A stretch of DNA of 64,000 nucleotides, taken from a virus. The notes under the pieces are model-generated. The model ran no database searches, was not told the origin of the DNA, and worked only from the letters and a program-made list of their open reading frames with translations. The DNA lies in IMG/VR virus record IMGVR_UViG_3300048580_000994, positions 1-64,000 of that record. The stretch is one strand, 5' to 3'. The translations under genes were made by a program, and so were the position numbers. Below, in pieces: positions 1,240-51,253 of the stretch (position 1 is the first letter of the stretch; every line of letters begins with the position of its first letter).

Positions 1240-1270
1240 TTTATTGTTTCCTAATGTATAAATAGTTAAT

Positions 1271-1332
1271 GGAGGGAGTAGTTGTACCTAATGACTACTT
1301 GGAAGAAATTTACAAGATTTCTTCCACCTTCC
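1271..1332 (+). ncRNA. anti-RBS three-way-junction RNA element, copy A
   Basis: On the + strand TATAAATA (1257-1264) is followed six bases later by P1 (1271-1276 with 1327-1332, one G-U). Inside are two perfect hairpins: 1277-1282/1294-1299 and 1300-1309/1317-1326. The loop of the first hairpin contains CCTAATG (1287-1293). This is identical to 1250-1256, the antisense of the endonuclease RBS region. Stem sequences are unrelated to the other eight copies, yet architecture and loop logic are the same. Confidence 0.7.
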
Positions 1333-1457
1333 TGTATTTATTTATCAATTTTTTCAAAAAAATGTATATTGATTTTTAAAAATCAATGATTTATACTAAA
1401 ATAGTTAATTTTTAAAACTATTTTATAAATAAACGTTTATTATAATGGAGTTATAGC

Positions 1458-16797: not shown

Positions 16798-16886
16798 GGA
16801 CTCTAGGGAACTCTTGGTTTGTTCCAACGGGCTTTTAACCCGTCTTGCTTAACGCAATTGGCCAGTTCGATTCTAGGCAGAGTCTA
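16798..16886 (+). tRNA. tRNA, anticodon TTT, long variable arm
   Basis: ACGGG-CTTTTAA-CCCGT anticodon arm, extra arm TTGCTTAACGCAA. A Lys anticodon on a class II body is unusual. The leftward endonuclease gene ends inside its 3' end. Confidence 0.8.
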
Positions 16887-17751
16887 CCACTTTATTAAAA
16901 TACTTATCTTGTGCTTCTTTTACTGTTCTTGTTTTTATACCAAGATATTGTAAAAGAAAAAATGGTCCAGCAGGGTTTGGGTTTTTTAATAGTTCACATA
17001 ATTGTGGGGTACTATATTGGTTGTATAATGATTGGGCATAATTTTTACAAGTATTCCAATCATTGATAAATTCAGGTGTACCCAAATTATCTAATGATAA
17101 ATTAAAATATTTGTTTAGTCCTTTTAATATTTGGGTTGAACGATTGATGCCACAAAGGCAATTTGGTTTTTTTGTTCCACAAAATTTACACAAGGTTTTA
17201 TCTATTATTGGTGGTTTGTGTGATTTAGTGTTTTTATTTTCCCAAGATAACAGAGGGCGATATTTTACTGCTTTTGGTCCATACCACCCTTGTCCAATAT
17301 ATTCTTCCAATAATAATTTGGATATTTTGGTTCGTGTGTTGGTTAAAGGTTGTATAACCCAACAGGTTCCAAATTGCGAGTTTTTATCACCAGATTGTGT
17401 ATTGCTCATTGTTGTGCTCATATTTTTTCTGGCATAATCATATAAGCGTGAATTAAAATATCGTTGTATATTACACCAAGAAGAACTTTTCATCATATTA
17501 AATGCCATAATCATACTATACCAACTGTGTGATTTTTCAGGTAGCATTTTACAAAGAAGATAGTGACATATAAAATGTTCTCTAGCAGTTAAAAAAACTA
17601 AATTATCGTTGGTATCATCACCATCCAACGACCTTGGGATGATGTGGTGTTTTTCATAATATTGGGTTTTAGATTTAACCCTTGGTTGTGATTTAGCGTT
17701 TTGGATAATTCCATAATACCAATTATAGTATTTATTTTTTATAAAAATCAT
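16873..17751 (-). CDS. HNH homing endonuclease
   Basis: A 292-aa protein with an N-terminal HNH core, EKHHIIPRSLDGDDTNDNL followed by REHFICH. Zinc-ribbon-like cysteines (CKFCGTKKPNCLC) come later, and the C-terminal helical region is a likely DNA-binding part. Paralogues are at 31524 and 50275. I start it at the MIFIKN methionine as in the paralogues; the frame open to 17844 only reads through the structured leader. Its last codons run into the 3' end of a tRNA. Confidence 0.88.
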   Translation of the reverse strand: MIFIKNKYYNWYYGIIQNAKSQPRVKSKTQYYEKHHIIPRSLDGDDTNDNLVFLTAREHFICHYLLCKMLPEKSHSWYSMIMAFNMMKSSSWCNIQRYFNSRLYDYARKNMSTTMSNTQSGDKNSQFGTCWVIQPLTNTRTKISKLLLEEYIGQGWYGPKAVKYRPLLSWENKNTKSHKPPIIDKTLCKFCGTKKPNCLCGINRSTQILKGLNKYFNLSLDNLGTPEFINDWNTCKNYAQSLYNQYSTPQLCELLKNPNPAGPFFLLQYLGIKTRTVKEAQDKYFNKVVDSA

Positions 17752-17787
17752 TTGTATTCTCTCCGAATAAAGTGTATAAATAAAAGG

Positions 17788-17845
17788 AGTGGGACAAGCC
17801 CTTCTCCGATGGGTTTCTAATACCGGCAAAGTATTGGATACCACT
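17788..17845 (+). ncRNA. anti-RBS three-way-junction RNA element, copy B
   Basis: TATAAATA 17775-17782; P1 AGTGG/CCACT 17788-17792/17841-17845; hairpin CCC 17799-17801/GGG 17811-17813 whose loop holds TCTCCGA (17803-17809), identical to the antisense of the endonuclease RBS (17760-17766); second hairpin AATAC/GTATT. Confidence 0.8.
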
Positions 17846-17918
17846 AATCTTATTTATCAAATAATTCTTAATATAGCAGAAAATAGTTATAAAAATCAAT
17901 ATTTTAATTAAAAATTTT

Positions 17919-20020: not shown

Positions 20021-20052
20021 AAATAGCACAATTTTTAAAAATTGTGCTATTT
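20021..20052. terminator. perfect palindrome, bidirectional terminator
   Basis: A 16-bp perfect inverted repeat with no loop bases (AAATAGCACAATTTTT and its complement) between tRNA-Gly and the convergent endonuclease, whose stop codon it includes. Confidence 0.7.
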
Positions 20053-20766
20053 GTTTATATAAATTGGCATTGATGAATTATACCAATTATTATTATATTC
20101 AGAGTATTTGGTATTCCATTCGTCAATTTCTAATAATAATTGTTCTAAAGTAACTGATGAATTTCCACACTTGGAACAATTGTCCTTTTTTAATAAATAT
20201 TCACAGTTGGCAGGATGTGACAATATCATTGGATTTATATTGTTTTTATAACCATTAACGACTGAATAACGATGGTCTTTATCATAGTTGTTTCCTTCAA
20301 TAATATTATTAAAACCTAATAAACAATGCTTAATATTGTCGTGTATTTTTTTAAATCTGGATAATGTTCTGTAGTTTTTAAATGGCTCGACATCTGCAAT
20401 AGTTAGTCCAAATTTTTTGAGTAATGTGTTTCTTTGTTGTTCCCTTGATTTTTCTGAACGATTTTTATTAGAGTTATCTCCAGAACAAGTTTGTGAACAA
20501 AAAGAATTTCGTCTTTGTTCATAAGGAATATTGTTGCCACATACCAAACATTTTTTGACAAATGAAGCTGTTGATATTGCCAATCGTTCTTTATTGGTTA
20601 AAAATCCTGCTTCTTTAATTGCGTTACTCCAACTACCAAATGTTCTTTCAAAGTGTCCATAATGAATGCTTGGTGAAAAAGTAAAATCGTTTCTTGATGG
20701 TATTTTATTATGTTGATTATAAAAATTTTTTAGTTCTGAAATTAAAAAGTCTTTAGTATATTTCAT
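20047..20766 (-). CDS. HNH homing endonuclease with zinc finger
   Basis: A 239-aa protein. An N-terminal helical domain precedes a CLVCG...CSQTC zinc finger. The HNH core is DKDHRYSVVNGYKNN followed by HPANCEYL. A final CSKCG lies before the C-terminal helix. Related cores are at 21861, 29114 and 47216. A short out-of-frame ATG frame of six codons overlaps the start. Its leader carries element copy C. Confidence 0.88.
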   Translation of the reverse strand: MKYTKDFLISELKNFYNQHNKIPSRNDFTFSPSIHYGHFERTFGSWSNAIKEAGFLTNKERLAISTASFVKKCLVCGNNIPYEQRRNSFCSQTCSGDNSNKNRSEKSREQQRNTLLKKFGLTIADVEPFKNYRTLSRFKKIHDNIKHCLLGFNNIIEGNNYDKDHRYSVVNGYKNNINPMILSHPANCEYLLKKDNCSKCGNSSVTLEQLLLEIDEWNTKYSEYNNNWYNSSMPIYINK

Positions 20767-20802
20767 TTGACATAATCTCCGGTTTCGGGTTATAAATAAA
20801 GG

Positions 20803-20861
20803 AGTGGGACAAGCCCTCCTCCGGTTGGGTTTCTATTGCCGCCACAGCAATGGATACCACT
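20803..20861 (+). ncRNA. anti-RBS three-way-junction RNA element, copy C
   Basis: TATAAATA 20791-20798; P1 AGTGG/CCACT 20803-20807/20857-20861; loop of hairpin CCC/GGG (20814-20816/20827-20829) contains CTCCGGTT (20819-20826), identical to the antisense RBS at 20777-20784; second hairpin ATTGC/GCAAT. A leftward GATAAATA late box lies just beyond P1. Confidence 0.82.
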
Positions 20862-20884
20862 AATTCTTTATATTATTTATCATT

Positions 20885-21839: not shown

Positions 21840-21870
21840 AATGGTTAGTAAGGTTCGAACTTACTTGATA
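21840..21870 (+). tRNA. tRNA 3' fragment
   Basis: A perfect T-arm GTAAG-GTTCGAA-CTTAC adjoins the stop of the leftward endonuclease gene without a matching 5' half. It looks like a tRNA broken by the endonuclease insertion. Confidence 0.4.
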
Positions 21871-22682
21871 TATCTGGGTAATGTGTGGTTGCCAAATTCC
21901 CATAATACTATTCGAAGAAATAGTTCATTCAATGTTATAGTTGATGATATTCTTCTGTTAAAATTTTCTTTATATGGAACCATTTCTGCGTTTGCAGGAT
22001 GTTTTATTAATTCAAATGATATATTATTTTTATATCCTTCTTGTATTTGGTATAAATGGTCCCAAGTAACTCCGGTGGGGTTTGGGTTCATTGCTGAATG
22101 TGGTCTATACCACCCATAGTTTTTGATCATTTCAAAATCAAATAATTCACTATGTTTTTTGGAAGATAATGAAAACCTGCAACTTTTTCTGTAAAATGTT
22201 TTATTTTCATATCTACATTTTGTGCAATAACAAGAACTTCTTGATGCTGGACTGATAAATATAATATTACATTTTTCACATTGTTTGTATTTAATATTTG
22301 TGGTTGGGTATTCTTTTGGTGCTTTATATGTTGGTGATTTTGTTCTTGGATTTTGTTGGAAATATATTTTTAATTTTTTAGAAACAGTTAATCCAATTTG
22401 TTGTTTAGAAACATCTGATAGTGTCCAGCCATTTTCAATTCGTTTTTTATTAGTATAAGTAGCAGAACAAGAATGATTGCAGAAATCTTTTCTTTTATTA
22501 TCATAATCAATAATTATACCGCAGCACAAACATTTTTTAGGGTTTTGGTTGTATAGTTTGATGTTTTCGTTTTTAGTATGGTTGCCCAAACATTGTTTTG
22601 AGCAATAAGTCATTGATCTTTTATCTTTGATTATAAATTCTTTTTTACATTCTTGGCATATAGCAGTTTTTTTAATTTTCAT
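21861..22682 (-). CDS. HNH homing endonuclease with zinc fingers
   Basis: A 273-aa protein starting with a CQECKKEF...CSKQC finger, a second CLCCG...CNHSC finger and a third cysteine group. The HNH core is WDHLYQIQEGYKNN followed by HPANAEMV. The N-terminus is very like 29114-30289. RBS CCGGAG; leader carries element copy D. Confidence 0.88.
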   Translation of the reverse strand: MKIKKTAICQECKKEFIIKDKRSMTYCSKQCLGNHTKNENIKLYNQNPKKCLCCGIIIDYDNKRKDFCNHSCSATYTNKKRIENGWTLSDVSKQQIGLTVSKKLKIYFQQNPRTKSPTYKAPKEYPTTNIKYKQCEKCNIIFISPASRSSCYCTKCRYENKTFYRKSCRFSLSSKKHSELFDFEMIKNYGWYRPHSAMNPNPTGVTWDHLYQIQEGYKNNISFELIKHPANAEMVPYKENFNRRISSTITLNELFLRIVLWEFGNHTLPRYIK

Positions 22683-22718
22683 TTGACATAATCTCCGGTT
22701 TCGGGTTATAAATAAAGG

Positions 22719-22777
22719 AGTGGGACAAGCCCTCCTCCGGTTGGGTTTCCATTATCCGCTAAGTAATGGATACCACT
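22719..22777 (+). ncRNA. anti-RBS three-way-junction RNA element, copy D
   Basis: TATAAATA 22707-22714; P1 22719-22723/22773-22777; loop CTCCGGTT 22735-22742 equals the antisense RBS 22693-22700. Nearly identical to copy C except hairpin 2, here CCATTA/TAATGG, where both strands changed together. Confidence 0.82.
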
Positions 22778-22829
22778 AATTCTTTATATTATTTATCATT
22801 TTGGTTGTAAAAGTCAATATTTAAATTAT

Positions 22830-27548: not shown

Positions 27549-28622
27549 TTATGGTATAAAATCACATTCCCATATGGTAATTAAATTAAATCCATCAGAT
27601 AATAATTTATTTTCTCTTATTAATGTTGATGTATATAGTTCACCGAATGTTTTCTTATTATTTGAATTAATATCTGATGGATTAAATTTAGATGGATTGC
27701 CGTGCCAATAATCACCATAAAATTCATATATAGTATTTGTTTCTGGGTTAAAGCCATCAACTTTTATTATTGATTTATCTGATAAAACTAATTCGATCTG
27801 TCTCATATTTTTTGGGATACCAATTGTGTCAAGCCATAAATTTTCTTTTTTACTTTGCAAACAATTTGGGCAATTCGAACCTGTCAAATGTAAGTCAGCT
27901 CTTTGTTGAAAAACACCATGTTTTTTACAAATTATATTGATTTTTGTTCTGGTGTTTATATATTCAACTAATGTGTAGTCATATTTATCACCATGAATTT
28001 TCTTGGCTTGTTCGATATATTCTGTTGTAGTTTTTCTGTTATTACCATAACATTTACTGCAACCAATACCAAGTAAATGTGTCCCAGGTGGTTGTTCAAA
28101 GTCGCCATGAATTGGGCAAGTTATTATTATTTTTGTGGCTGCATTTATATATATAGTTTTATCATAATTATAAAAATTGTTGTGAATTGTTGATGCCTCT
28201 TTAATAAATTGTTCTTTTGTTTTTGTTTTATTATCTGATGAGCACTTTGGGCATCCATGTCCACTAATATGATTGTCTGGTGTTTGTTCAAAATCACCAT
28301 GAGTTGGGCATGTTATTACAATTTTATTATCTGTTGATGTATAATTTATTTTATCATAATTATAAAAATTGTTGTGAATTGATGATGCTTCTTTAATAAA
28401 TTGTTCTTTTGTTTTTCTACAACGTTGTGAGTTTTTTGCTCCTTTACATTTAGGACAACCATAACCTCTAGAATGGTTATCTGGTGTTTGTAAAAATATA
28501 CCATGAGTTTTACAAATAATTTTTACTTTTTCTCTGGCTTTTTCATAAATGACAGATGTATAATCATATTTATTATTATGAATTTTTGATGATTTTTCTA
28601 TAAATTTTAATAATTTTGACAT
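27549..28622 (-). CDS. homing endonuclease: zinc-ribbon repeats plus Vsr-like nuclease
   Basis: A 357-aa paralogue of 151-1239. Four repeats with IHNNFYNYDK and CPIHGDFEQ/CPxC blocks are followed by VDGFN, YEFYGDYWHGNP and a closing IWECDF. RBS AAAGGAT. Unlike most leftward endonucleases here, its leader has no three-way-junction element; an AT-rich stretch with GATAAATA precedes it. Confidence 0.82.
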   Translation of the reverse strand: MSKLLKFIEKSSKIHNNKYDYTSVIYEKAREKVKIICKTHGIFLQTPDNHSRGYGCPKCKGAKNSQRCRKTKEQFIKEASSIHNNFYNYDKINYTSTDNKIVITCPTHGDFEQTPDNHISGHGCPKCSSDNKTKTKEQFIKEASTIHNNFYNYDKTIYINAATKIIITCPIHGDFEQPPGTHLLGIGCSKCYGNNRKTTTEYIEQAKKIHGDKYDYTLVEYINTRTKINIICKKHGVFQQRADLHLTGSNCPNCLQSKKENLWLDTIGIPKNMRQIELVLSDKSIIKVDGFNPETNTIYEFYGDYWHGNPSKFNPSDINSNNKKTFGELYTSTLIRENKLLSDGFNLITIWECDFIP

Positions 28623-29113: not shown

Positions 29114-30289
29114 TTATTTTTTGTGTCTTGTCATTCCTCGCCAGAAACCTTCTGGTATTGTATCGTTATGATTTAATCTTGTATTAATTATTCCATTGGT
29201 TATATAAATTTTTCCAGACATAGATGCACTTATTTTTTCTTTGTGTTCTTGGGTTTTTGATAAATGTTTGGATGTTATTACTATTGGTTGGATATTATTT
29301 TTATCCCAAGTTTGAATTTTTTTTATTAATTCTTCGATGGACATTCCGATTCCAGTACCTTTAGTGATATTATCTAAATTGGATAATAATTGACAATTCG
29401 CTGGGTGTGATATAATTTTTGGGTCAATATTATTTCTCCAGCCATATTCGACTGATATTATATGGTCTCTACAAACACCTTGTTTGTTATTAGTTGAATT
29501 GTAGAACCCATATTTTAATAATAAATCATAGCCTTGTATATTTGGGTATAAGAAAACATCGAATAAAAATTTACATTCTTTTTTATAGATTTTTTTCTTA
29601 TCTGTCATTTTTGTACCAGATTGTATTCTGTAATTTTGGTTTGCTATGGTTAATGTTCTTAAATTAATTCCTATTATTTTTAAAAACATTCCAAAATCAC
29701 TATATTGGATTTTTAGATAGTTTTTAATTTCTTTTGCAGACATTTTTTCATTTGTGTATAGTCTATCTAATTCTTTTATTGAATTATTAATGTTTATTTG
29801 TGTTTGTTGATTGCCTAATTGAAAATTAAATATATTAGCTAATTTTTTTGCAATCGGGAGTTTTGTTGGGTTATCCCACCCTGTGGCTGGTTTTAATTTA
29901 GGATGGTATATATTGCCTGTGATTGGGGAATATTTAATTTTGGTATGTTGGTATTTGTTTTTTATTTTAATTGGGTTTTGTTTATTAATTTTTAATTTTT
30001 CAGATATTTGTTTTTTTGCGGTTTCAGGCATTGCCCACCCGGTTTCTTTTCGTTTTTTATTATTATATTTAGCAGAACAAGAACTACTACAAAAATTGTT
30101 TGATTTATTATCATATTTTATCAAAATTCCACAATATAGACATTTTTTTGGGTTTTGGTTATATGTTTTGATGTTTTCATTTTTGGTATGATCGCCATAA
30201 CATTTTGGTGAACAAAAAGTTGATGTTGTTTTTGCTGGTATAAATTCTTTTTTACATTCTGGGCATATAGCAGTTTTTTTCATTTGCAT
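29114..30289 (-). CDS. HNH homing endonuclease with zinc fingers and NUMOD-like tail
   Basis: A 391-aa protein from ATG at 30289 (or 30283, two codons later). It has two N-terminal CxxC fingers like 21861-22682, a central helical insert, the HNH core CRDHIISVEYGWRNN with HPANCQLL, and a C-terminal NUMOD3-like motif (SKTQEHKEKISASMSGK). The frame open to 30352 just reads through the structured leader. It sits directly 3' of tRNA-Leu. Confidence 0.87.
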   Translation of the reverse strand: MQMKKTAICPECKKEFIPAKTTSTFCSPKCYGDHTKNENIKTYNQNPKKCLYCGILIKYDNKSNNFCSSSCSAKYNNKKRKETGWAMPETAKKQISEKLKINKQNPIKIKNKYQHTKIKYSPITGNIYHPKLKPATGWDNPTKLPIAKKLANIFNFQLGNQQTQININNSIKELDRLYTNEKMSAKEIKNYLKIQYSDFGMFLKIIGINLRTLTIANQNYRIQSGTKMTDKKKIYKKECKFLFDVFLYPNIQGYDLLLKYGFYNSTNNKQGVCRDHIISVEYGWRNNIDPKIISHPANCQLLSNLDNITKGTGIGMSIEELIKKIQTWDKNNIQPIVITSKHLSKTQEHKEKISASMSGKIYITNGIINTRLNHNDTIPEGFWRGMTRHKK

Positions 30290-30319
30290 TTTCTCCGAAT
30301 AAAGTATATAAATAAAAGG

Positions 30320-30378
30320 AGTGGGACAAGCCCTTCTCCGATGGGTTTCCAATACTTCCGACGGTGTTGGATACCACT
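30320..30378 (+). ncRNA. anti-RBS three-way-junction RNA element, copy E
   Basis: TATAAATA 30307-30314; P1 30320-30324/30374-30378; loop TTCTCCGA 30334-30341 equals antisense RBS 30291-30298; hairpin 2 CCAATAC/GTGTTGG (30349-30355/30364-30370). Confidence 0.82.
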
Positions 30379-30431
30379 ACTATTTATATTATTTATCATT
30401 TTAGTTGTAATTGTCAATATTTAATTTTTAT

Positions 30432-30801: not shown

Positions 30802-30887
30802 GCGGGTAGCAGACATCTGGGGGTGTCACCGGTCTTCCAAACCGGCTACTGTAAAAGGTATTTTGGATTCGATTTCCACTACCCGCT
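30802..30887 (+). tRNA. tRNA-Gly(TCC), second
   Basis: GCGGGTA/TACCCGC acceptor; CCGGT-CTTCCAA-ACCGG; long variable loop. Confidence 0.88.
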
Positions 30888-31523: not shown

Positions 31524-32564
31524 TTATTTTATTATTTTTTGTTTTGATAGAATTATATATCCTTTTATAGCTAATTTATCATAGCTTATCTTTGTAAAAA
31601 TATTATGATTTTTTAGGAATTCTCTCATATTATTTGTTGTTATAATTGATTTGTCAGGTAATTGAATTTTATACAGGAATTGTGGGTTAGGTTTTCTGGT
31701 TGTTGGTGATATATAATTTGGATTTTGTTGTTTAAGAAATTCTCTGGATTCTTTGGGTGTTCTTATTGATATATTTAATAATCTTAATAATTTATGCAAA
31801 CCACCAGTGTTTTTATGATTAACTAACCTACTAAGTTCTATAGAACTATATTTATTATATAAATTTTTGGCATAGTTTTTACATAATTCCCAATCAGTAA
31901 TAAAGTTTGGTGTGCCTAAATTTGCCAGATTCAAATTAAAATATTTGTTTAATCCTGGTAATGCTTGTTTACTCATATCTATTTTGCATATTTGGCATAG
32001 TGTTTTTGATTTATGTCTTGTGCCGCAAAATGGACAGATCGTTAATTTTAATTTTTTTTCTTCTAATGATAATTTTGGTTGATAACCGTTTTTTGGCCCA
32101 TACCATCCTTGTCCTATATATTCTTCTATTAATGTTTTTGGGACTTGTTTTTGTAAGTTTATTATCCAAGAATGTGTGACCCAGCACATTCCATATCTTG
32201 GGTTTTTGCTACCTGTAAATTGTTGCATTGTTTTGCTCATGTTTTTTCTGGCATATTCATATAAATGGGAATTAAAATATCTATGATTATTTACAGTTGT
32301 TTTCATCATATTAAAAGCTCTGACCATACTATACCAATTCTCTGTATTAATTGGTAACATTTTACAAAGAAGATAGTGGCATATAAAATGTTCTCTGGCA
32401 GTTAATAGAACTAAATTTTCTTTGGTGTTATCCCCTTTCAATGATTTTGGTAATATATGGTGTTTTTCATAATATTGGGTTTTGGATTTAACCCTTGGTT
32501 GTGATTTGGCATTAGTAATAATATTATAATACCAGTTGTAGTATTTATTTTTTATAAAAATCAT
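31524..32564 (-). CDS. HNH homing endonuclease
   Basis: A 346-aa paralogue of 16873-17751: HNH core EKHHILPKSLKGDNTKENL plus REHFICH, CPFCG...CQICK zinc ribbon, then a longer C-terminal region with probable DNA-binding repeats. RBS CTGGAG lies 9 nt upstream of the ATG. Leader carries element copy F. Confidence 0.88.
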   Translation of the reverse strand: MIFIKNKYYNWYYNIITNAKSQPRVKSKTQYYEKHHILPKSLKGDNTKENLVLLTAREHFICHYLLCKMLPINTENWYSMVRAFNMMKTTVNNHRYFNSHLYEYARKNMSKTMQQFTGSKNPRYGMCWVTHSWIINLQKQVPKTLIEEYIGQGWYGPKNGYQPKLSLEEKKLKLTICPFCGTRHKSKTLCQICKIDMSKQALPGLNKYFNLNLANLGTPNFITDWELCKNYAKNLYNKYSSIELSRLVNHKNTGGLHKLLRLLNISIRTPKESREFLKQQNPNYISPTTRKPNPQFLYKIQLPDKSIITTNNMREFLKNHNIFTKISYDKLAIKGYIILSKQKIIK

Positions 32565-32600
32565 TTTGACTTATCTCCAGTCTAAAGTTATAAATAGATG

Positions 32601-32658
32601 AGCGGGACAAGCCCTACTCCAGTTGGGTTTCAATTATCGTCAAATAATTGATACCGCT
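32601..32658 (+). ncRNA. anti-RBS three-way-junction RNA element, copy F
   Basis: TATAAATA 32589-32596; P1 AGCGG/CCGCT 32601-32605/32654-32658 (U-A replaced by C-G relative to copies B-E); loop CTCCAGT 32617-32623 equals antisense RBS 32575-32581; hairpin 2 CAATTAT/ATAATTG. Confidence 0.82.
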
Positions 32659-32728
32659 CCTAATCTTATTTATCTTTTTGTTTCAGAATTGCGTATTTTA
32701 TTTTTTTACCAATAAAGGAGGGACTATC

Positions 32729-34269: not shown

Positions 34270-34363
34270 TAAAAACGTTGAAAATAATTTGACACAAGTT
34301 GGATTATAGGGTATAAATAAAAGAATGGAAAGCGACGTTGGAAGGATTTTTGGAGATTTTTTA

Positions 34364-34576: not shown

Positions 34577-34603
34577 CAAAAACGTTGGAGTAGAGTATAA
34601 ATA
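34573..34603 (+). promoter_or_regulatory. promoter for interrupted tRNA pair
   Basis: TTGACA 34573-34578 with TATAAA 17 bp on; the same bases also make a late TATAAATA box. Confidence 0.5.
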
Positions 34604-34673
34604 AAGAATAGAAAGAAACGTTGAAGAAAAAAGTTAGACAGAAGTGTTAAATGGAATTTTAGAACACTTTATG

Positions 34674-34793
34674 CCGGATTAGCAAAGCGGTCGAATGCAC
34701 CGGTTTTGTTAAGCACAGAGGGCGTGGTAATTCACGATGTGTGCTTTACAAACCGGTATCCCACAACGCAGGTTCGAATCCTGTGTCCGGCAC
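34674..34793 (+). tRNA. tRNA with a 40-base hairpin in the anticodon loop
   Basis: GCCGGAT/GTCCGGC acceptor and T-arm GCAGG-TTCGAAT-CCTGT are intact. CCGGTTTTGT is followed by hairpin AAGCACA/TGTGCTT (34712-34718/34741-34747) with inner CGTG/CACG, then AAACCGG. Removing 34711-34750 would restore CCGGT-TTTGTAA-ACCGG, anticodon TGT (Thr). Confidence 0.65.
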
Positions 34794-35054: not shown

Positions 35055-35921
35055 TTAGAGTCCTTTTTCTTTTTTAACATACTCCCAATTTAGATTTTCA
35101 TATTTGTCTATGATAAGAAAATTCTTATTGTATATTTTTAACCATTTATCGATCCTAACCATTTGTTCTGGATTTTTCCAAGCCTTTGGGTCAAGATATA
35201 AATTAAAATCTGGTAAGAAAAAATCTGGTGTGTATGAACTGCCGCCACCAATCCAAAAATGATATGCTCGTTTCCATTTTATTCCTGCTTTATCAAGTTC
35301 ATTTGCCATTTTCCATTCCCAAGTAGAATCTAACTGGCATTCCCTTCCAAAAGAATCTATATATTGAATTTTTTTGGACCAACCACTGGCTGATCTCCAT
35401 TCTGGGTGTAGTGCAATCCCGCTTGGGTTTGCCAAACAGCGTTGTCTGAGTTTTTCTTTTGTTTCGTCTGAGTGTGTGGTTTGTAATCCAGATGTAAATT
35501 GATTACCAAAAGATTCGTGGGTTGAACCTAATTTATATAAATGAGTATCTTGGTGTTGTATACCATTTTCAGTATGAGATAGCCAATAATGTGATAATAA
35601 CGATGTTCTTGAATTAAAATTTTGTTGGCAATTCGGACATACCCATAAATTATTAATTAGACAATCATTTGTTATTATAGATGCAACATTAGTTTTTAAT
35701 TTGTTTGGTCCAGTAAAATAAGTCCCGTCACAGGAGTCATTGTGTTTTTTAAAATTGCTTTTAGATATTTCTCTGTTGCATTTTTCGCAGCATTTTGTTG
35801 CTTTTAATGCAGTTGATAAATTTTCGCTTCTGCATTTATCTGAACAATAATTTTTTCTTCTATTGGTTGTTGTGAATGCTGTTTTGCAGTGCTGGCATAT
35901 TTTAGTTTTTTCTTTGCTCAT
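35055..35921 (-). CDS. homing endonuclease, zinc fingers plus PD-(D/E)XK-like domain
   Basis: A 288-aa protein. CQHCK...CSDKC and CEKCN fingers and a C2H2-like CPNCQQNF...HYWLSH finger come first. A NUMOD-like helix (SDETKEKLRQRC) and a C-terminal nuclease-like domain with YTPDFFLPDFNLYLDPK follow. It sits 33 bp after the interrupted tRNA. Leader carries element copy G. Confidence 0.82.
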   Translation of the reverse strand: MSKEKTKICQHCKTAFTTTNRRKNYCSDKCRSENLSTALKATKCCEKCNREISKSNFKKHNDSCDGTYFTGPNKLKTNVASIITNDCLINNLWVCPNCQQNFNSRTSLLSHYWLSHTENGIQHQDTHLYKLGSTHESFGNQFTSGLQTTHSDETKEKLRQRCLANPSGIALHPEWRSASGWSKKIQYIDSFGRECQLDSTWEWKMANELDKAGIKWKRAYHFWIGGGSSYTPDFFLPDFNLYLDPKAWKNPEQMVRIDKWLKIYNKNFLIIDKYENLNWEYVKKEKGL

Positions 35922-35962
35922 TTTATTGACCTCTCTAAAATTAAATGTTATAAATAAGAATT

Positions 35963-36024
35963 AGCGGGACAAGCCCATTCACTCTTGGTGGGTTTTCCGA
36001 ACCTCAGAAATTTGGAATACCGCT
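35963..36024 (+). ncRNA. anti-RBS three-way-junction RNA element, copy G
   Basis: TATAAATA 35949-35956; P1 AGCGG/CCGCT 35963-35967/36020-36024; hairpin CCCA/TGGG. The loop holds CTCT, matching only four bases of the antisense RBS (35931-35937), the weakest copy. Confidence 0.6.
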
Positions 36025-36091
36025 ACTATTATTATTTATCAATTATGAATTAAAAAGTGTAATAAAGTCAATATAATAAGGAGAAATATAT

Positions 36092-47215: not shown

Positions 47216-47818
47216 CTATTTTTTATATTTTTCTTCCCACAATCTTACTCTTTCAAATAACTCGTCTATCGTTATGGATGAATTATGGTTCTTGCGTGAA
47301 TTATCAGATTGTGAAATTAATTTACAATTCGCTGGGTGACTTATAAAAAACGGGTCTATTTTATTTTTAAAACCATCAGCCATGCTATACATGTGATCCC
47401 TTGATATTCCCCCTTTATTTGTCAGAGAATTAAACATCCCATGTTGTATTAATAATTTAAAATCAAATTCTTCTGGATAATCTTTGATGTTAAATAAAAA
47501 CTTTGATTGTTCTTTGTATTGTTTTTTATCGTTCATAAAATCAATTGGTTTAACACGTAATTCATTGTTGAATTTTGCAGCACAAGAACTTGAGCAGAAC
47601 TTTCTTTGGTGCCATACTGTTAAATAATTATCACAACAAATACATTTTCGTAGCTTTGATTGGTATTTTATTAATAAATCTGCAGCTATAATTCGTTTGG
47701 TTAAAATACAAGAACATTTTGGTCTTGTGATTGTACCATTTGATAATCCATGCATTCTCATATGCCCAGATAGAGCATTTTGGTTTTTAAATTCTTTTTG
47801 GCATATATCACATTTCAT
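47216..47818 (-). CDS. HNH homing endonuclease with C2H2-like finger
   Basis: 200 aa; starts with CDICQKEFKNQNALSGHMRMH (a C2H2-type finger), then CICCD...CSSSC, and HNH core SRDHMYSMADGFKNK with HPANCKLI. RBS CCGGAG. Leader carries element copy H. Confidence 0.87.
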   Translation of the reverse strand: MKCDICQKEFKNQNALSGHMRMHGLSNGTITRPKCSCILTKRIIAADLLIKYQSKLRKCICCDNYLTVWHQRKFCSSSCAAKFNNELRVKPIDFMNDKKQYKEQSKFLFNIKDYPEEFDFKLLIQHGMFNSLTNKGGISRDHMYSMADGFKNKIDPFFISHPANCKLISQSDNSRKNHNSSITIDELFERVRLWEEKYKK

Positions 47819-47855
47819 CTTGCGTTTTCTCCGGTATAAGTGTATAAATAATGAA

Positions 47856-47914
47856 AGTGGGACACCCCATCCTCCGGTGGACTTCAGTTGTCAACAATAC
47901 TCCTGATCACCACT
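47856..47914 (+). ncRNA. anti-RBS three-way-junction RNA element, copy H
   Basis: TATAAATA 47843-47850; P1 AGTGG/CCACT 47856-47860/47910-47914; loop CTCCGGT 47872-47878 equals antisense RBS 47829-47835. Inner stems are weaker than in other copies. Confidence 0.72.
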
Positions 47915-47958
47915 ATTAGTATTATTTATCATTATGGTTATAAAAGTCAATAATTATG

Positions 47959-50274: not shown

Positions 50275-51075
50275 TTATTTTTTGATAGCACTAAACCCCA
50301 ACCTATTTAATAGGGAGTATACAGTCCCTATGTTATCGTGTTTTATGATTTTAGTTATTTCTGAAACAGTATAATTATCACAAAGATTTTTTATATGTTG
50401 TTTCATGGAGTTCCAATCATTAATAAATTCTTTTGTTTTTAGGTTATCCAAACGTAATCCAAAATATTTATTACAACCTTTCATTATTTGGATTGAATAG
50501 TTTATATTACAAGAACAATCCTTTTTATGTTCTCCGCAGCAGTGACAAATTTTTATTTTCTCCCAAGATAATTTTGGGGTCCATGGTCCTTTTGGTCCTA
50601 TCCACCCTTGACCAATATATTCTTCGATTAAATGTTTTGGGATTTTGATTCGTAAATTATCTATCCAAGAATGAACCATCCAAGTGGTTCCGAATTGGGA
50701 ATTTAATTTTCCGCCTTGTGAGTTATTCATTGTGACAGGCATATTTTTTCTGGCATATTCATAAAGATGAGAATTAAAATATCTATTTTGGTTGTGAGAT
50801 ATAGATGAACTTTTCATCATATTAAGTGCTTTAACCATACTATACCATTCTATGGATTTTTCAGGTAACATTTTACAGAGTAGATAGTGACAAATAAAAT
50901 GTTCTCTGGCTGTTAATAAGATTAAATTATTTGTATTATCCAATCCACCTAATGACCTTGGTAGTATATGGTGTTTTTCATAATAAGTTTCTTTGGATTT
51001 AATTCTTTGTTGTGATTTGGCGTTTTGGATAATTCCATAATACCAGTTATAATATTTGTTTTTTATAAAAATCAT
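50275..51075 (-). CDS. HNH homing endonuclease
   Basis: 266 aa; same family as 16873 and 31524: EKHHILPRSLGGLDNTNNL with REHFICH and a CHCCG...CSC zinc site. Shorter C-terminus. RBS CTGGAG. Leader carries element copy I, nearly identical to copy F outside hairpin 2. Confidence 0.88.
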   Translation of the reverse strand: MIFIKNKYYNWYYGIIQNAKSQQRIKSKETYYEKHHILPRSLGGLDNTNNLILLTAREHFICHYLLCKMLPEKSIEWYSMVKALNMMKSSSISHNQNRYFNSHLYEYARKNMPVTMNNSQGGKLNSQFGTTWMVHSWIDNLRIKIPKHLIEEYIGQGWIGPKGPWTPKLSWEKIKICHCCGEHKKDCSCNINYSIQIMKGCNKYFGLRLDNLKTKEFINDWNSMKQHIKNLCDNYTVSEITKIIKHDNIGTVYSLLNRLGFSAIKK

Positions 51076-51111
51076 TTTGACTTATCTCCAGTCTAAAGTT
51101 ATAAATAGATG

Positions 51112-51171
51112 AGCGGGACAAGCCCTACTCCAGTTGGGTTTTTCAGATGGTCGAATCTCTGAAATACCGCT
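51112..51171 (+). ncRNA. anti-RBS three-way-junction RNA element, copy I
   Basis: TATAAATA 51100-51107; P1 AGCGG/CCGCT 51112-51116/51167-51171; loop CTCCAGT 51128-51134 equals antisense RBS 51086-51092; hairpin 2 TTTCAGA/TCTGAAA, changed on both strands relative to copy F. Confidence 0.82.
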
Positions 51172-51253
51172 ACTATTATTTATCTTTTTCTTTCATTTTT
51201 GTGTAAAAATAATTTGACAAAATGATAAATAAAGTTTACTATATAATTAATAT

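Follow-up and report, generated by a model that had tools for sequence, protein, structure and literature searches.

A three-way-junction RNA family at the 5' ends of mobile nuclease genes in phages, with a probable role in the antisense control of their translation

Introduction

The stretch of DNA analysed here, referred to as the window, covers positions 1 to 64,000 of the IMG/VR virus record IMGVR_UViG_3300048580_000994 and belongs to a virus contig of 82 kb. It carries 37 tRNA-type matches, every one on the + strand, with leftward endonuclease genes interspersed, and nine of these genes have the same short structured module at their 5' end, among them the module at positions 20,767 to 20,884. 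This arrangement raises the question of which strand of the module is functional and what it does to the gene beside it. We describe the module as the site of a new structured RNA family, and consider, with good though not full confidence, that an antisense RNA repressing the translation of mobile nucleases is its best explanation.

Results

Layout of the module in the window

A first-pass annotation of the window had described, for nine leftward endonuclease genes, a + strand box followed 4-6 nt later by a stem (P1, AGTGG/CCACT or AGCGG/CCGCT) enclosing two hairpins, the loop of one of which (P3) was said always to repeat the + strand sequence over the ribosome-binding site (RBS) of its own gene. 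The layout is present in all nine copies, named here by the start of their gene, and the box TATAAATA is exact in 9/9 at that distance from P1. Eight copies share one three-way-junction fold and have the P1 stems described; the ninth, copy 1239, is diverged in sequence and has GGAGGG/CCTTCC as its P1. The window contains 23 occurrences of TATAAATA versus 10.1 expected, a count that 0/100 shuffles reach. A second box, GATAAATAA, had been overlooked: it lies on the gene's strand at the far end of the module, is exact in 9/9 copies and has 20 occurrences in the window (2.7 expected). Convergent boxes thus flank the structured DNA on both sides. TTGnnn, a -35 element, stands 17-18 nt upstream of TATAAA in all nine window copies (it is not general elsewhere), and since it overlaps the start codon region, the RBS of these copies lies inside the antisense promoter.

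The identity between loop and RBS holds over 7-8 nt in eight of the nine loops. On the + strand the shared letters are CTCCGGTT (copies 20766 and 22682), TCTCCGA (17751 and 30289), CTCCAGT (32564 and 51075), CTCCGGT (47818) and CCTAATG (1239). In copy 35921 the match is ~4 nt, so "always" was too strong. The loop of the diverged copy 1239 has a predicted pairing energy of -10.1 kcal/mol with its own RBS versus -2.0 to -5.8 kcal/mol with the other eight, and the loops of the other window copies reach just -3.4 to -4.7 kcal/mol with the 1239 RBS. Folding energies of single copies are modestly better than those of shuffles (z -1.1 to -2.5 in the window copies other than 1239, which has z -5.05 on the + and -1.97 on the - strand). 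The real significance comes from homologues, through covariation and loop/RBS matching in other phages.

Search for homologues and consensus structure

Exact patterns used early matched nothing convincing. The pattern TATAAATAN{2,9}GNGGGACA matched 119 stretches in IMG/VR, ~15-18 of them clear homologues that lie either opposite a nuclease gene or upstream of one. A first structure model (R1), built from 19 copies, recovered window copy 47818, which was absent from its training set, and did not recover copy 1239, which has no GGGACA core. A second pattern, which drew on neither promoter, gene nor anti-RBS, matched 34 viral stretches versus 2 in 257 Gb of GTDB genomes, and these two look like chance; two further patterns of this kind matched 41 and 52 stretches. 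On the latter two sets the refined model R2 gave 84 matches with E-values of at most 1 (values from these models are rough), 66 of them distinct, with the weakest, roughly below 25 bits, mostly looking like chance. Searches of whole records yielded more copies through the model alone, six of them in a 543 kb record (IMG/VR 3300024239_000011). Covariance model and viral contig scans together place at least 60 further copies beyond the window, on contigs that are metagenomic fragments.

Twenty other viral records contained zero copies, and none was found in 17 named-phage records, including T4, GAP32, Serratia BF, Erwinia SNUABM_49, Vibrio 2.275.O, SRILMA, Lak-A1, Atu_ph07, Mater and Motura. A single weak match, in Synechococcus phage B23, sits within a recombinase-like coding frame. 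A protein pattern found no relatives of the 20766 endonuclease. Rfam 15 has no family above the gathering threshold over the element and no credible weak match either, which led us to reject a known riboswitch or ribozyme. A tRNA relic was also rejected: the tRNA gene at L011 is a chance match to an early pattern, and the element has no T arm.

The consensus runs P1 (NNNGG/CCNNN), GAC, P3 closed by A-U and G-U, P2, UUA and P1 again. Across 44 model-aligned copies, 96.5% of cells are paired and both sides have changed in 12 of 14 pairs; the covariation score is 0.735 compared with 0.156 ± 0.017 when shuffled and at most 0.13 with the partners slid, a figure that leans upward because the alignment was fitted to the structure. 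The earlier statement that compensated changes make drift or simple repeats a poor explanation is borne out by covariation in more homologues, and by loop/RBS tracking in other phages.

Copies opposite nuclease genes

Copies were assigned to an antisense or a sense type by the nearest long reading frame. Nearly all of the 37 non-redundant antisense-type copies have a nuclease gene on the strand opposite the RNA. The longest identity between the P3 loop and the gene start averages 7.43 nt, compared with 4.60 ± 0.17 nt in permuted pairs (0/20,000), and is at least 7 nt in 28/37 copies versus 3.8% of mismatched pairs. For the 23 copies whose discovery relied on neither promoter, loop nor gene, the mean is 7.22 versus 4.59 nt, with at least 7 nt in 17/23 versus 3.0%; the loop/RBS identity is therefore seen in other genomes among independently found copies. 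Controls with the P2 loop and with the reverse complement were null. In most antisense-type copies the segment matched by the P3 loop covers the Shine-Dalgarno sequence or the start codon, and the duplex of loop and own RBS has an energy of -12.0 versus -6.0 ± 0.38 when permuted.

Both boxes recur in the 23 independent copies: 17 have an exact TAAATA upstream (4% expected) and 20 have one on the mRNA side, facing in the sense direction (9% expected), each a few nt from P1. A gp55-type late sigma factor (phrog_234) occurs in seven carriers, all with antisense copies, and was found neither in four sense-only carriers nor in 14 control genomes; it was also not found in five other antisense carriers, among them the present 82 kb record, possibly a fragment. 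The conservation of both sides and the gp55-type sigma in seven carriers support the view that the boxes behave as T4-type late promoters.

The antisense targets belong to unrelated families, namely HNH, GIY-YIG, NUMOD3, DUF723 and DUF7487/VSR-like proteins, mostly of 200-490 amino acids (aa). At two loci of the 543 kb record the target is TnpB, with the loop covering the start codon itself (AGCAGATG).

Copies in the leaders of nuclease genes

The same scaffold serves as 5' leader in 32 non-redundant sense-type copies, ahead of TnpB, GIY-YIG, DUF7487, DUF723 and HNH/AP2 genes. In these, complementarity to the RBS, in cis, resides in the P2 loop (6.44 versus 5.02 ± 0.165 permuted, 0/20,000), with null results for the P3 loop and for same-sense controls. 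The scaffold strand displays the complement of the RBS in the antisense and the sense type alike. An extended AT stem, P0 (ATAAATAA/TTATTTAT), was considered and dropped in favour of two promoter boxes, because the second box is rare in sense-type copies (2/32).

The P3 loop of sense-type copies contains a palindromic hexamer in 20/32 versus 16% when shuffled, which suggests that these leaders may dimerise through loop-loop contacts. The palindromic hexamers and octamers include TTCGAA, TTGCAA, TGATCA and GTAGCTAC (e.g. L276:10751, L232, L302, L279:5737).

Sense-type leaders also lie 5' of DnaD-like replication proteins and of a DNA methylase gene (L293, L305, L280, L311, L235), so the cis form extends beyond mobile nucleases. 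TnpB genes are found with the scaffold in both orientations, as a 5' leader (L299, L306, L297, L265) and as antisense (L147, L153). RAGATH-18 RNA occurs near L297 and L299, and HEARO RNA near L297.

The functional strand

On the + strand, 19/19 hand-aligned and 32/44 model-aligned copies close P3 with a G-U pair, where the mRNA strand would have A-C. The named RNA strand folds better in 21/29 antisense-type and 25/32 sense-type copies. Outside the closing pair, an excess of G-U is weak in the antisense-type set (11 versus 7, with 4 of the 7 in the outermost pair) and clearer in the sense-type set (18 versus 4). Taken with the sense-type copies and the folding energies, the near-constant G-U closing pair points to the + (antisense) strand as the functional RNA. 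The antisense reading of the first-pass annotation is therefore supported by the P3 pair and + strand folding, by sense-type leaders whose strand is fixed by the gene, and by loop/RBS tracking elsewhere. It needs amending for one window copy without a loop match and one highly diverged copy, for the convergent mRNA promoter opposite, and for the presence of the module on TnpB.

Mobility and reassortment

At L190 the likeness to a Pseudomonas phage capsid region ends ~18 nt before the element, which is followed by an HNH gene; this boundary fits a role of the RNA as the 5' end of a mobile unit. In the window, related proteins have different leader types and dissimilar proteins have a common one, and since leader type does not follow protein relatedness, leaders and genes reassort. 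A paralogue of the 1239 endonuclease (27549-28622, 51% identical) has a GATAAATA box and no module, so the module is separable from the gene.

Features of the window

Coordinates of the modules are collected in Table 1. Two more TTGACA-N17-TATAAATA promoters, at 34312-34330 and 34596-34620, precede short purine-rich repeats of related sequence (AAAGAATGGAAAGCGACGTTGGA; AAGAATAGAAAGAAACGTTGAAG), which may mark a further small RNA. At + strand sites such as 24591, 36750 and 55585 an ATG falls within ~10 nt after GATAAATA, hinting at late mRNAs with very short leaders. The tRNA array includes a tRNA-Sec match (30802-30886) and a 120 nt tRNA match (34673-34792) that may contain an insertion.

Table 1. 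Module copies in the window and the parts of the copy at gene 20766
Feature	Position	Strand	Basis
Putative antisense promoter box TATAAATA, T4 late-type; TTGACA 18 nt before its TATAAA	20791..20798	+	
Three-way-junction RNA scaffold: P1 AGTGG/CCACT, P3 GCCC/GGGU, P2	20803..20861	+	R1/R2 model match, covariation
P3 loop TCCTCCGGTT with anti-RBS CTCCGGTT	20817..20826	+	same letters as 20777-20784; duplex with own RBS -13.8 kcal/mol
RBS AACCGGAG of endonuclease gene, predicted target of the loop	20777..20784	-	sequence
Putative convergent mRNA promoter box GATAAATAA	20873..20881	-	
Endonuclease gene, HNH_repeat, phrog_23051-like	20047..20766	-	
Module 5' of endonuclease 16873-17751; leader type B, loop TCTCCGA	17775..17858	+	
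Module 5' of endonuclease 21861-22682; leader type A, loop CTCCGGTT	22707..22797	+	
Module 5' of endonuclease 29114-30289; leader type B, loop TCTCCGA	30307..30397	+	
Module 5' of endonuclease 31524-32564; leader type C, loop CTCCAGT	32589..32674	+	
Module 5' of endonuclease 35055-35921; leader type E; scaffold present, no loop/RBS match	35949..36040	+	
Module 5' of endonuclease 47216-47818; leader type D, loop CTCCGGT	47843..47930	+	R1 match
Module 5' of endonuclease 50275-51075; leader type C, loop CTCCAGT	51100..51184	+	
Divergent module 5' of DUF723-type endonuclease 151-1239; type F, three-way junction, no GGGACA core, loop CCTAATG = RBS	1257..1346	+	fold z

Discussion

We propose that each module equips the 5' end of a mobile nuclease gene with two promoters. 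The nuclease mRNA would come from one of them, of the late type (nATAAATA), and an antisense RNA from a convergent one ~60-90 bp away; the first 55-65 nt of the antisense RNA would form the three-way junction. Its start at P1 is predicted by sequence from the spacing of T4 late promoters. Because the RBS lies upstream of that start, the antisense RNA would have no direct complement of it; the loop copy would solve this. The P3 loop would pair with the Shine-Dalgarno and start region of the nuclease mRNA, and the rest of the scaffold could pair with the mRNA leader. Occlusion of the RBS would block translation and keep the nuclease low while both RNAs are made late, possibly with cleavage of the leader duplex by RNase III in addition. 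The benefit may be a lower cost to the phage and perhaps also restored transcription of downstream genes; since most copies have no terminator, repression and downstream + strand transcription could both take place. Transcription, pairing in vivo, repression and the reason for it are what we infer from the sequences.

Several observations weigh against this proposal. The strongest single copies are unexceptional in folding energy, and the long exact loop/RBS match is missing in copy 35921 and in a few homologues (L244, L283, L035). In the five antisense carriers G000, G004, G034, G024 and G063, records that may be fragments, no gp55-type sigma was found. A terminator-like hairpin lies within 200 nt downstream in just 1/37 antisense copies, so a discrete small RNA is not assured.

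The rarity of terminators would suit a + strand RNA that serves mainly as a structured 5' leader for + strand genes further downstream (tRNAs or others) whose promoter was displaced by insertion, any anti-RBS effect being minor. At some loci a + strand gene does start within 100 nt downstream, and promoter-displacing insertions are a recognised problem for free-standing endonucleases (PMC2988022). Such a role is compatible with antisense repression and not exclusive of it, but as the main function it seems rather improbable, for it leaves the tracking of the opposite gene's RBS by the loop unexplained. The mirror image has also been considered, with the structured element as an mRNA leader and its loop as an RBS decoy titrating ribosomes or a translational repressor: the mRNA from the GATAAATA box would hold the scaffold complement and an RBS sequence in the loop. 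However, its strand would have A-C at the closing pair of P3 where the + strand has G-U, several mRNA strands do not form the three-way junction, and the scaffold strand of sense-type copies has the RBS complement and no RBS copy. Because the scaffold strand shows this complement in both types, the decoy is unlikely.

A DNA-level operator, in which the repeats are protein-binding sites (e.g. for autorepression by the endonuclease, as with I-TevI) and the RNA fold is secondary, has a precedent, as I-TevI shuts down its own late promoter via an operator resembling its homing site (PMC2988022), and one repeat does lie within the antisense promoter spacer. We nevertheless regard it as very unlikely: the repeat spacing in the window varies (37, 42, 42, 43, 43, 49), half-turn changes included, the repeat is common to unrelated proteins and different among related ones, and the covariation of P1, P2 and P3 and the sense-type copies would be left unexplained. 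Recent duplication or gene conversion, with an incidental fold, could account for the near-identical leaders of some window copies (20766/22682; 32564/51075), but the same tracking occurs with different sequences in unrelated phages and nuclease families, the permutation tests refute it, and the P2 and P3 pairs covary; we give it practically no weight.

Antisense repression has several relatives among known systems. The closest geometry is that of par/Fst, a type I toxin-antitoxin system (RNA I/RNA II) with convergent promoters: in par of pAD1 the RNAs, transcribed towards each other across direct repeats, block the start of the toxin, the antisense repeat covering the mRNA start (PMC7472228), a pairing that we infer here. 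Its target is a small hydrophobic toxin peptide (33 aa in pAD1), whereas here the targets are mobile nucleases of 100-500 aa, and, unlike in par, the repeat sits in a loop of an antisense element that forms a conserved three-way junction, and the promoters are T4 late-type. The shared bidirectional intrinsic terminator of par/Fst was not found here. IS10 RNA-OUT and IS200 art200 are plain cis-antisense RNAs that overlap their target start. They are closest in role, since an antisense RNA of a mobile element limits the translation of its own mobility enzyme (PMC4963395). The likeness, by sequence, is an opposite-strand RNA complementary to the start of the mobility gene; the difference is an RBS outside the antisense transcript, matched via a duplicated loop.

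The T4-group homing endonucleases I-TevI, I-TevII, I-TevIII, SegB and MobE are restrained by RBS hairpins and late promoters, the hairpins acting in cis on early read-through mRNA, with antisense transcripts described in that review only as a by-product of promoter insertion (PMC2988022). Control at the start of translation and late promoters are thus shared, but the T4 systems have no conserved three-way junction or trans-acting RNA, and in the antisense copies here the RBS is outside the scaffold. HEARO and the omega RNAs of IscB/TnpB are likewise structured RNAs adjoining HNH-containing or TnpB nuclease genes. No HEARO match was found on the element, which, unlike these RNAs, has a loop that matches the RBS, is ~60 nt long and accompanies unrelated nuclease families; a guide-RNA reading was rejected, the same fold being found on unrelated nucleases with a loop that matches the RBS. 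We found no antisense RNA mechanism for T4-type homing endonucleases in the literature, which is weak evidence as most subscription papers were outside coverage. The element is a new take on known antisense control.

Taken as a whole, the copies likely represent an undescribed phage RNA family in which one three-way-junction scaffold with exchangeable loops silences the translation start of mobile nucleases. It would act as an antisense RNA in trans (anti-RBS P3) in large phages with a gp55-type sigma and elsewhere as a 5' leader in cis (anti-RBS P2, with a P3 loop that is often palindromic and may dimerise), and would have moved between HNH, GIY-YIG, VSR-like and TnpB genes.

So far, the regulation of homing endonucleases has been described for a few T4 genes, where it relies on mRNA hairpins, promoter timing and autorepression. 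A built-in brake on the amount of the cutter is probably what this small RNA provides in many environmental phages, with the clearest cases among giant T4-like ones. If this is true, the module is a portable RNA controller that travels with selfish genes, connects homing endonucleases with TnpB via a single RNA, supplies a compact natural scaffold for displaying an anti-RBS loop, and may help explain how many copies are tolerated per genome, with nine in one 64 kb window.
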